Shown piece after piece: positions 17,744-57,293 of a DNA stretch of 57,380 nucleotides. Within the stretch, counting starts at the first letter, position 1. The number at the start of each line of letters is the position of its first letter. This stretch comes from Lachnospiraceae bacterium (GTDB taxonomy: Bacteria; Bacillota; Clostridia; Lachnospirales; Lachnospiraceae), in NCBI GenBank assembly GCA_030526245.1, contig JAUNDD010000011.1, forward strand, positions 1 to 57,380, written 5' to 3'. The notes under the pieces are model-generated. The model saw only the letters and a list, made by a program, of their open reading frames with translations, did no database searches and was not told the origin of the DNA. The position numbers were made by a program, and so were the translations under genes.

Positions 17744-18217
17744 TCAGCCCAGATTGCGGATCTTAAATTCCTTCTCCGCTTCACGGCGCTGGTCCTTCTT
17801 GGCGATGTCCGCCCTCTTGTCATACAGCTTCTTGCCTCGAGCCAGACCGACCTGGACCTTAACCAGACTTCCCTTGAAATAGACCTGCAGCGGTACGAGG
17901 GTCAGCCCCTTTTCCTTGATCTTTCCCATCAGCTTGTTGATCTCACTCTTGTGCATCAGCAGCTTTCTCGTCCGAAGCGGATCCTTGTTGAAAATATTGC
18001 CCTTCTCATACGGACTGATATGCATGCCCTGGATAAAGACCTCTCCCTTATCGATGCGGATAAAGGACTCCTTGATGCTGCATTTGCCCATACGGATCGA
18101 CTTGACCTCCGTGCCGGCCAGCTCGATGCCTGCCTCATAGGTCTCATCAATAAAATAGTCGTGATACGCCTTTTTGTTATTGGCGATCAGCTTTGTCCCT
18201 TCTTTTGCCATACACAT
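17744..18217 (-). CDS. smpB: SsrA-binding protein SmpB
   Basis: A 157-residue protein with the SmpB core: [33 protein letters not shown], the central [17 protein letters not shown], and the basic tail beginning [15 protein letters not shown]. SmpB binds the tRNA-like domain of tmRNA and places it in the A site of stalled ribosomes; the tail reaches into the mRNA channel. The start could be ATG 18217 or ATG 18211 (MAKEG); both have a GAGGTGAAAGG-type site in range. It lies just upstream of ssrA on the same strand, but tmRNA has its own promoter. Confidence 0.95.
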
Positions 18218-18242
18218 CCGCCTTTCACCTCAGTCAACGTTT

Positions 18243-18335
18243 CCCCACTTCTTGCTCATATCGGGGCGTGTCATTAAGTCACGTCTCCACTTTCATGCAA
18301 GCATGAAGTGGAGAGTGACTTTTGACACTTTAATC
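18243..18335 (+). repeat. Palindromic repeat family A, copy 1
   Basis: A 93-bp intergenic sequence, from CCCCACTTCTTGC to GACACTTTAATC, that differs by one base from 52481-52573 and is related to an inverted copy at 33614-33685. Its core is a long hairpin: GTGTCA, AGTCAC and TCTCCACTT on the left are matched by AAGTGGAGA, GTGACTT and TGACAC on the right. It lies between smpB and the secG terminator. Strand is given by the orientation of this copy. Confidence 0.85.
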
Positions 18336-18383
18336 ATAGAACAAAGCGTGCTTTGCACGCTAGCCGCTTTGCGGCGGTTGTTC

Positions 18384-33545: not shown

Positions 33546-33584
33546 CCGCCTGCGTCTTAATTCCTAGTGTTTCGCTTGGATTAC

Positions 33585-33611
33585 GTTACAGTTCACGCAG
33601 TGAACTGTAAC
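33585..33611. mobile_element. 27-bp palindromic mini-element with 8-bp target duplication
   Basis: GTTACAGTTCAC, loop GCA, then GTGAACTGTAAC: a perfect 12-bp palindrome. It is flanked by identical octamers TGGATTAC at 33577-33584 and 33612-33619, as expected from a transposition-type insertion. It abuts family A copy 4. Confidence 0.75.
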
Positions 33612-33613
33612 TG

Positions 33614-33685
33614 GATTACAGTGTCAAAAGCTGCGTCTGCACTTTATGTTTGCATGAAAGTGCAGACGCGACTGAATGACACGCC
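33614..33685 (-). repeat. Palindromic repeat family A, diverged inverted copy
   Basis: Read on the minus strand it matches copy 1: GGCGTGTCATTCAGTC, CTTTCATGCAAACAT, and TTTTGACACTGTAATC. The stem keeps pairing through paired changes (CTGCACTT/AAGTGCAG instead of CTCCACTT/AAGTGGAG). It ends next to the glgA stop codon and may serve as its terminator. Confidence 0.75.
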
Positions 33686-52203: not shown

Positions 52204-52480
52204 ATCAAGTCACCTCATCGCCGACATGCTGTCCGAACGCGGAGAGTGACTTCTGACTTGTAGATCCTATAAAGCTTTCAGGTGTCAATAGCAATCAATA
52301 ACAGGACTACGGATTGCTTCGTGCTTCGCACTCCCACAATCCTACCCGCTATTCGCAATTCATGGAGCCCCTTCCCCACTTCTTGCTCATATCGGGGTGT
52401 GTCATTAAGTCACATTACGGTTGCTTCGTGCTTCGCACTCCCACAATCCTACCCGCTATTCGCAATTCATGGGGCCCCTT
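52204..52480 (+). repeat. Repeat cluster: partial family A copies and 107-bp tandem repeat
   Basis: A partial family A copy (about 52204-52260, AAGTCACCTC to GAGAGTGACTTCTGAC) is followed by a unit starting TTGCTTCGTGCTTCGCAC at 52314 that repeats at 52421, a 107-bp period. Each unit ends in the CCCCACTTCTTGC start of family A. No gene is visible in this 400-nt stretch. Confidence 0.75.
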
Positions 52481-52573
52481 CCCCACTTCTTGCTCATATC
52501 GGGGCGTGTCATTAAGTCACATCTCCACTTTCATGCAAGCATGAAGTGGAGAGTGACTTTTGACACTTTAATC
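52481..52573 (+). repeat. Palindromic repeat family A, copy 3
   Basis: 93 bp, 92 of them identical to 18243-18335. It ends 16 nt before the 3' end of the tRNA-Arg gene. Confidence 0.9.
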
Positions 52574-52589
52574 CTATAAATAAGAAAAG

Positions 52590-53818: not shown

Positions 53819-53859
53819 GTAAAAGCTCCCTGGCCATTCTCCTCCAAACAGCCAGGGAG
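53819..53859 (-). terminator. Terminator downstream of ung
   Basis: A perfect 10-bp stem GCTCCCTGGC/GCCAGGGAGC (arms 53824-53833 and 53850-53859), followed by TTTTACTTTT on the minus strand. It lies about 30 nt upstream of the DUF5688 start and could also act as an attenuator for it. Confidence 0.75.
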
Positions 53860-53944
53860 CCGGGTTGATGTGATCAGCTTATCACACCCATGTCGACATA
53901 TCAATCCATTTTATGTAACATCACTTTATATTTGTGATGTTTTA

Positions 53945-54086
53945 GTTACAGTTCAGGCGGTTCGATTCCGCGAGGTGTTTTGCCGCGTATGCGGCAAAAT
54001 CCCGAGGGTTGCAGGCCAAAATCCCATTGCCGAAGGCAATTTGGAATGGATTTTGGCCAGTTACAGTTCACTGCGTGAACTGTAAC
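53945..54086 (+). mobile_element. 142-bp MITE-like element with 8-bp target duplication
   Basis: It starts GTTACAGTTCAGGCGG and ends TGAACTGTAAC (11-bp inverted ends). Both flanks carry the octamer ATGTTTTA (53937-53944 and 54087-54094). Inside are module C (53952-54007) with a 9-bp hairpin TTTTGCCGC/GCGGCAAAA, a long hairpin GGCCAAAATCC/GGATTTTGGCC, and a right end that is itself a 27-bp palindrome (54060-54086). It has no coding capacity, so movement would need a transposase elsewhere. Confidence 0.75.
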
Positions 54087-54228
54087 ATGTTTTATTGTGC
54101 TCTGTTATTGCGATTTTTCATTGTGATCACTCATCACAGGACCAGCATAGCGGCCCCGTTTCTTCTGCATCCCGATACCCGTACCATCCGGGGAGGACAA
54201 ATCTGTTCATCCGGAACAGCCCGTTCTT

Positions 54229-57050: not shown

Positions 57051-57183
57051 AATATTTCATCTCCTGTGATGCAAGATCTATACCATTTGCGGCCCTGGCC
57101 GCTGAAAAACAGAAAAATTGTACCACATTGCCTCCGGAAATCCTAGTAGTTCGCTTCTTAAATAACTGAATACTTGCCCGCTT

Positions 57184-57230
57184 TGTAACAGTTCATACGG
57201 CGAACTGTTACGGACTGCCTGAACTGTAAC
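57184..57230 (-). mobile_element. 47-bp short version of the MITE-like element
   Basis: Read on the minus strand it starts GTTACAGTTCAGGCAG, as the 142-bp element does, and ends in a palindrome GTAACAGTTC/GAACTGTTAC plus one A, without the internal module. The octamer GCCCGCTT flanks it on both sides (57176-57183 and 57231-57238). The terminal few bases at one end differ slightly from the other copies. Confidence 0.65.
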
Positions 57231-57293
57231 GCCCGCTTCCCTGATAGTCCAAACCCGAAATATCTTGCGCCAATGTTCAAAAGACACAGAATC

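Follow-up and report, generated by a model that had tools for sequence, protein, structure and literature searches.

The window, by which we mean the whole stretch of 57,380 nucleotides that was analysed, is contig C19 of a Lachnospiraceae assembly that comprises 35 contigs with a total of 1.51 Mb and is 60% complete. At its udg/DUF5688-type locus it contains a 142-bp unit at 53945–54086 (+ strand), found both by direct reading and by script, which we regard as a full-length copy of a miniature transposon. The unit starts with the terminal inverted repeat GTTACAGTTCA (53945–53955, + strand) and closes with a right repeat at 54076–54086 (− strand) that reads TGAACTGTAAC on the + strand, while the octamer ATGTTTTA stands on either side as a target duplication (53937–53944 and 54087–54094, both unstranded). 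The first-pass annotation had described this arrangement, a non-coding unit with inverted ends and an exact octamer on both sides, which we could confirm. Two shorter units lie in the same window: a 27-bp palindrome at 33585–33611 (unstranded), flanked by TGGATTAC at 33577–33584 and 33612–33619, and a 47-bp unit at 57184–57230 (− strand), which consists of the palindrome, 8 bp and a single end and is flanked by GCCCGCTT at 57176–57183 and 57231–57238. The identical flanks reported for both copies proved to be exact as well. The left end of the 47-bp unit, TGTAACAGTTCA, starts one base earlier than the standard end.

From left to right, units are built of the left end, a variable stretch, the motif CGCGAGGYGTT, a hairpin, the motif AAWCCCGAG, a second hairpin and a palindromic right end. 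In the 142-bp copy the conserved core, CGCGAGGTGTT-hairpin-AATCCCGAG, spans 53969–54006 (+ strand) and its hairpin shows compensatory changes across subfamilies. The second, long hairpin, GGCCAAAATCC...GGATTTTGGCC, follows at 54014–54058 (+ strand); some subfamilies carry a different hairpin here, with at least two quite different kinds among the units. The right end is a 27-bp palindrome (54060–54086, + strand) made of the inner arm GTTACAGTTCA, the letters CTGCG and the right end itself. The unit is too short for a transposase gene and has no coding capacity. For the 158 bases of the unit with its flanks, a fold of −72.5 kcal/mol is predicted, compared to −42.7 kcal/mol (sd 3.8) for shuffled sequences (z −7.8).

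Several further features were noted in the window. The stretch GCGGTTCGATTCCGC near the left end (53957–53971), present in the subfamily of the own genome and absent from the other aligned subfamilies, resembles a tRNA T-arm in shape. A strong terminator-like hairpin on the − strand (53824–53861) lies between a putative promoter left of the 142-bp unit and the DUF5688-type gene. The Clostridiales-1 RNA has two matches on the − strand, at 18184–18336 and 52408–52574, one of which is strong (114 bits) and the other barely above the cut-off (51 bits).

Copies in the own genome and in relatives

The end GTTACAGTTCA has 110 exact matches in the own genome (53 forward, 57 reverse), compared to 0 + 0 for the same pattern read backwards, and the 27-bp-type palindrome occurs 19 times. 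Stretches were collected around the first 100 of the 110 end matches listed. Among the end matches listed, 59 pairs of ends lie 25–260 bp apart with at most one mismatch per end, and 12 of these pairs have exact and 11 one-mismatch 8-bp flanks. The search for end pairs with matching flanks, which the first-pass annotation had proposed, thus gave 23 of 59 pairs with at most one mismatch, in contrast to 19 of 3422 swapped-flank combinations, the latter stemming partly from nested pairs with a common flank. Among the other 36 pairs are palindromic right ends that form part of longer units, as well as pairs whose duplication is decayed or missing. Nine members of the 142-bp size class were found among the end matches listed, six with exact and three with one-mismatch octamers, and the eight other full-length copies are 93–99% identical to that of the window. 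Members of 189, 220 and 221 bp contain an additional hairpin segment, members of 90, 46–47 and 26–27 bp lack inside parts, and sizes of single units range from about 26 to 233 bp. The longer units (189–221 bp in the own genome, L066, L011 and L035; 223–233 bp in Oliverpabstia, L097 and L105) have the additional segment at the loop of the second hairpin or close to it. The segment is not the same in the two hosts and gives the impression of a smaller palindrome inserted at this point.

A search for the exact palindrome pattern in 97 relatives gave one match with a long unrelated loop, and units of about 79% similarity were obtained by blastn in two records titled 'Bacteriophage sp.', L086 and L087, where each unit is flanked by an exact octamer duplication (GATCTCAT, identified by eye, in L086 and GAAATTGC in L087). 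A phage origin of these matches was rejected, since the reading frames of both records show pieces or scaffolds of bacterial chromosomes. The two records (MT839183 and MT839053) are unverified fecal scaffolds with ftsZ-, infC-, murE- and priA-like frames, named by eye; with such bacterial genes, they appear to be bacterial DNA filed under a wrong label. Units of the family are likewise present in the similar records L343–L349. The exact core had 0 matches in viral_contigs, and the plasmid sequences searched gave no match to the family.

From the inner sequence common to the units of about 79% similarity, a core pattern was derived, which hit at least 113 stretches of the genome collection, in Blautia, Oliverpabstia, Kineothrix and Hominisplanchenecus and in further assemblies titled Lachnospiraceae, Eubacterium, Eubacteriales or Clostridia. 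The exact core is present in six of 348 genomes of the bacterial family, the own genome included (G152 with 31, G186 with 22, G000 with 19, G137 with 18, G039 and G286 with one copy each). A class-wide search with a covariance model and strict filters found the transposon family in four of 391 genomes (own included), all of the same bacterial family and two of them weak. Among the stretches listed, the core led us to 85 distinct full-length units, whose ends are of at least three kinds, and 71 of them have exact and 14 one-mismatch octamers, in a set chosen for the core, for ends with at most three mismatches and for octamers with at most one. The claim of a mobile non-coding element with an 8-bp target duplication is hence borne out by units from many assemblies.

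In the same genus, the udg gene was matched in 11 of 12 other genomes, and all 11 have the DUF5688-type neighbour. Nothing similar to the unit was detected at any of these 11 loci, in relatives that are about 70–77% identical there and vary in intergenic spacing, which precludes a base-exact comparison. Orthologous sites with an unchanged unit, the observation that had been named as speaking against mobility, were thus not encountered at this level of identity. One genome, G006, has a diverged unit elsewhere (L321) with an exact duplication of CACAGCAG. What the sequences show directly are the inverted ends, the octamer duplications, the dispersed copies and the lack of a detectable unit at the same-genus loci.

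Position relative to promoter-like sites and the presumed helper transposase

For the flanks of the units we scored promoter-like sites, not mapped promoters, by a simple 12-letter count (TTGACA-16/18-TATAAT, at least 9 of 12 letters) and used dinucleotide-block shuffling of the flanks as the null. Across the 85 units, which provide 167 distinct flanks, there is a sharp peak of −35 boxes starting 38–41 bp from the unit, with 39 sites at 33–44 bp compared to a mean of 5.9 and a maximum of 12 in 40 shuffles. We split the units by the letters of their right ends into GTTACTG (46 units), GTAACT (25), the window's own subfamily (10) and others (4). Each of the 46 GTTACTG units has a duplication of its own, and for 26 of them a sigma-A-like −35 box was found at 37–42 bp. 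These 26 are spread over 10 assemblies, and their site lies on the right side in 15 cases and on the left in 11. Other 6-bp windows contain on average 2.6 sites per 46 units (maximum 8), and 200 flank shuffles gave a mean of 1.8 (maximum 6). Corresponding counts at 37–42 bp are 1 of 25 for GTAACT, 2 of 4 for the other ends and a weak 2 of 10 for the window's own subfamily. Of the three units in the window, that of 27 bp has the site TTGACT-17-TATATT (10 of 12 letters) on its left at a distance of 39 bp, directed leftward to the gene of an Rrf2-type regulator. For the 142-bp unit, TTGATA-17-TAAGCT at 40 bp reaches 8 of 12 letters, a score shared by two other sites, and the best site of the 47-bp unit reaches 7 of 12. 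Among 31 short units the same 6-bp window is weakly enriched, with 4 sites at 9 or more letters (0–3 elsewhere) and 9 at 8 or more (1–7 elsewhere). Since the signal is weak in the window and in its own subfamily, our argument on promoter spacing is based on the GTTACTG subfamily. Distance to start codons, as an alternative target rule, showed no sharp peak in any subfamily.

The best reading of the GTTACTG spacing, as judged from sequence statistics, is targeting by the transposase, and the question arises which enzyme could be responsible. According to the parts of PMC3942029 consulted here, Mutator-like (p-MULT) elements make 8–9 bp duplications, have a conserved terminal C and ends of 18–39 bp, and the lineages of TnGBS and ISLre2 and of ISKra4 insert 13–17 bp upstream of sigma-A −35 boxes. 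A helper from this group, such as IS256, ISLre2/TnGBS or ISKra4, would match the duplications, the terminal G/C and the promoter spacing of the unit, and we consider it a possible but doubtful candidate: the spacing of 37–42 bp differs from 13–17 bp, and p-MULT ends are longer. In the G186 contig L284, one-mismatch look-alikes of the end lie near IS256 genes at 1270 and 2793; having the same orientation, they do not form an inverted pair. The IS256 ends of G152, GAGCCTGTGAAA/GACGGTGTGAAA, readable in two of 8 matches, do not fit the unit, and the remaining loci gave no ends. Profile searches with PF06782 and PF12762, which we take to be the ISLre2/TnGBS and IS1595 transposases, respectively (the profile names agreed), gave 0 of 7 host genomes for the former, with the positive control likewise lacking a match, and 0 of 4 hosts for the latter, with the control matched in 1 of 14 genomes.

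Selection could also produce a spacing of this kind, if only harmless or useful insertions survived. Any set of surviving insertions has passed through selection, and in the own genome the spacing of the copies is weak. We nevertheless consider this account unlikely, because the peak is about 4 bp wide (38–41 bp) and occurs in both orientations and in 10 assemblies. Furthermore, the GTAACT units are without a peak, whereas two of the 26 promoter-spaced GTTACTG units come from G152, a genome with mostly GTAACT-kind ends. That GTTACTG units keep their spacing there fits a property tied to the ends, and targeting by the transposase remains the preferred explanation.

The full-length transposon with the unit's ends that the first-pass annotation had suggested looking for was found neither among the end matches listed for the own genome nor in 1.63 Mb of partly overlapping loci. 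Scans of 1777 end pairs 260–7000 bp apart and of 942 pairs 300–7000 bp apart revealed no element that combines a transposase gene, the ends of the unit and octamers in agreement. Octamers agreed in the two scans for a pair at L139, which spans ordinary frames and was taken as chance, and otherwise for a tandem pair at L144 in the 260–7000 bp scan. Two end pairs 3.1 kb apart in the own genome (C9 and C14) were rejected as well, with ordinary genes inside (by eye from the frames) and octamers that do not match. The near-closed genome G152 has 118 exact end matches, and the unpaired ends among the first 100, fetched except for one that carries the core, gave no gene-bearing element. A different short element was noticed at about 7369–7541 of L139 (Lab288P1bin41). 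It resembles the units in the kind of its ends, GTTACTATTCAC...GTGAATAGTAAC, has similar flanks and no conserved core, and may be a closer relation of the missing parent element.

IS66 elements make 8-bp duplications and have ends that begin near GTAA, and an IS66-type transposase acting in trans had been put forward on this basis. IS66 genes are present in G000, G152 and G039, three of the copies have their own 8-bp duplications, and the GTAACT subfamily shares the first letters of the ends. However, two of three similar G152 copies have the ends GTAAACGTCAAACCA, the G039 copy GTAAGYGCTTAA and the G000 copy the left end GTAAGCGTAACC (by eye), so that in three copies with both ends and in one with its left end the readable sequence differs from GTTACAGTTCA and from GTAACTRTTCA. 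G137, G186 and G286 contain the core without an IS66 match. The other two matches in G152 showed no ends passing the test, one of them with an internal stop. Mobilization by IS66 is consequently not supported by the host copies, and we regard it as improbable, although a distant relative of IS66 is conceivable as helper. IS66 proteins had three relatives in one scan of viral_contigs, for which ends were covered by the scan of pairs 300–7000 bp apart, and none in another.

Short units and the hairpin core

The free-standing 27-bp units have the same sequence as the 27-bp right end of the 142-bp unit. For the subfamily found in the window, the inner arm of the right palindrome is an exact 11-bp direct repeat of the left end, and therefore a single deletion between the repeats yields a 27-bp palindrome with intact duplications. 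The direct repeats of other subfamilies are shorter than 11 bp, and free 27-bp palindromes there carry the letters of the inner arm instead of the terminal ones (L347 and L337 with exact duplications, L243 with a one-mismatch duplication). Units with exact duplications form a deletion series of 27, 42, 45, 47, 69, 87 and 90 bp, and units of 41 and 51 bp with one-mismatch duplications show further internal deletions. Judged from this comparison, the 27-, 47- and 90-bp units probably arose by internal deletion of a unit of about 142 bp with the duplication kept, and the 27-bp unit is best read, from its anatomy, as a scar. The 27- and 47-bp copies of the window had previously been described as further copies whose identical octamers speak for transposition, and a rival reading would make them minimal transposons that jump by themselves. 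Both ends are indeed present in these units and the octamers are exact in several cases. Nevertheless, their sequence is that of the long unit's right end, inner-arm letters included, and the graded series as well as the presumable mechanical difficulty of assembling a DDE synapse on 27 bp make independent jumping very unlikely, favouring remnants of insertions of about 142 bp.

The core hairpin is maintained by compensatory changes. This hairpin, the first of the unit, has 60 different sequences in 160 copies, with the stem in nearly all of them, and in 26 aligned units 98.3% of the cells pair, with 35 double-change cells compared to 8.9 in shuffles (0 of 500 reach 35) and 0–8 in slid structures. 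It should be noted that the constancy of the core flanks is partly built in, since most units were chosen by the core pattern, which is not the case for changes inside the hairpin. L321, which was found without the core pattern, keeps CGCGAGGTGTT and AATCCCGAG and has changes in two otherwise steady outer stem pairs. The unit has no Rfam match at the gathering score, all weak matches being far below their respective scores. A conserved structured core would fit a non-mobile cellular regulatory RNA or repeat, a reading that is contradicted by the octamer duplications, finds no counterpart at the same-genus loci or in Rfam and can be practically dismissed.

Proposed model and relation to known systems

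We propose that the units constitute a family of miniature non-autonomous transposons of the MITE type, moved by a trans-acting transposase, with deletion-shrunk copies, promoter targeting in the GTTACTG subfamily and a constrained core, a reading to which we assign a probability of roughly 0.87. A putative transposase, most likely of the DDE kind, would act in trans on ends of about 11–12 bp, namely GTTACAGTTCA here and GTTACTGTTCA or GTAACTRTTCA in other hosts, and insert the unit of about 142 bp via an 8-bp staggered cut. After insertion, many copies would shrink by deletion between short direct repeats, and one such deletion could leave the 27-bp palindrome, as suggested by scars that keep the inner-arm letters. 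The enzyme of the GTTACTG units would, in either orientation of the unit, select DNA that precedes sigma-A −35 boxes by 37–42 bp, a position defined statistically from promoter-like sites, and may recognise the promoter or bound RNA polymerase. The hairpin core is under structural constraint.

A more specific version can be offered tentatively, with less than an even chance of being right. An undescribed DDE transposase of the GTTACTG (perhaps also GTTACAG) units would dock on promoter-bound RNA polymerase or sigma and cut near position −75 relative to the transcription start, about two helical turns beyond TnGBS/ISLre2. This aim would be missing in a sister subfamily whose ends are altered. 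The core would then be a functional part of the transposon, either a site for the transposase or a host factor or an RNA, instead of debris of a parent IS.

The family is frequent in its hosts, with 18–31 exact-core copies in four of the six core-bearing genomes. A palindromic end decaying to a 27-bp scar would also account for tiny palindromes between perfect target duplications, with no need for transposons of that size. One subfamily seemingly reveals a second spacing class of promoter-directed transposition, and insertion at a fixed position upstream of promoters could help to understand how transcription complexes are recognised by transposases and possibly provide a gene-sparing tool.

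No description of the family was found in the literature searched, end sequences included, and we regard it as a new MITE family of the Lachnospiraceae. REP and REPIN palindromes with their RAYT transposases resemble the unit as short multicopy palindromes, and to our knowledge they are not known for 8-bp target duplications. The IS66 family shares the 8-bp duplications and, with one subfamily of units, ends starting with GTAA, but differs in the ends readable in the hosts. Like bacterial MITEs in general (reviewed in PMC10969869; an example is MITEAba12, PMC6382973), the units are short and multicopy, without coding capacity, with terminal inverted repeats and a target duplication, here of fixed 8 bp, and presumably move in trans. 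In contrast to them, no parent IS is recognised, the palindromic right end duplicates the left end, the hairpin core shows compensatory changes and one subfamily has a promoter spacing. Closest in insertion behaviour are TnGBS, ISLre2 and ISKra4 (p-MULT 3 and 4), for which the consulted parts of PMC3942029 likewise give 8–9 bp duplications, a terminal C and a fixed distance upstream of sigma-A promoters. These elements are longer and gene-bearing with ends of 18–39 bp, and their distance of 13–17 bp compares to 37–42 bp for the units described here, a difference of about two helical turns.
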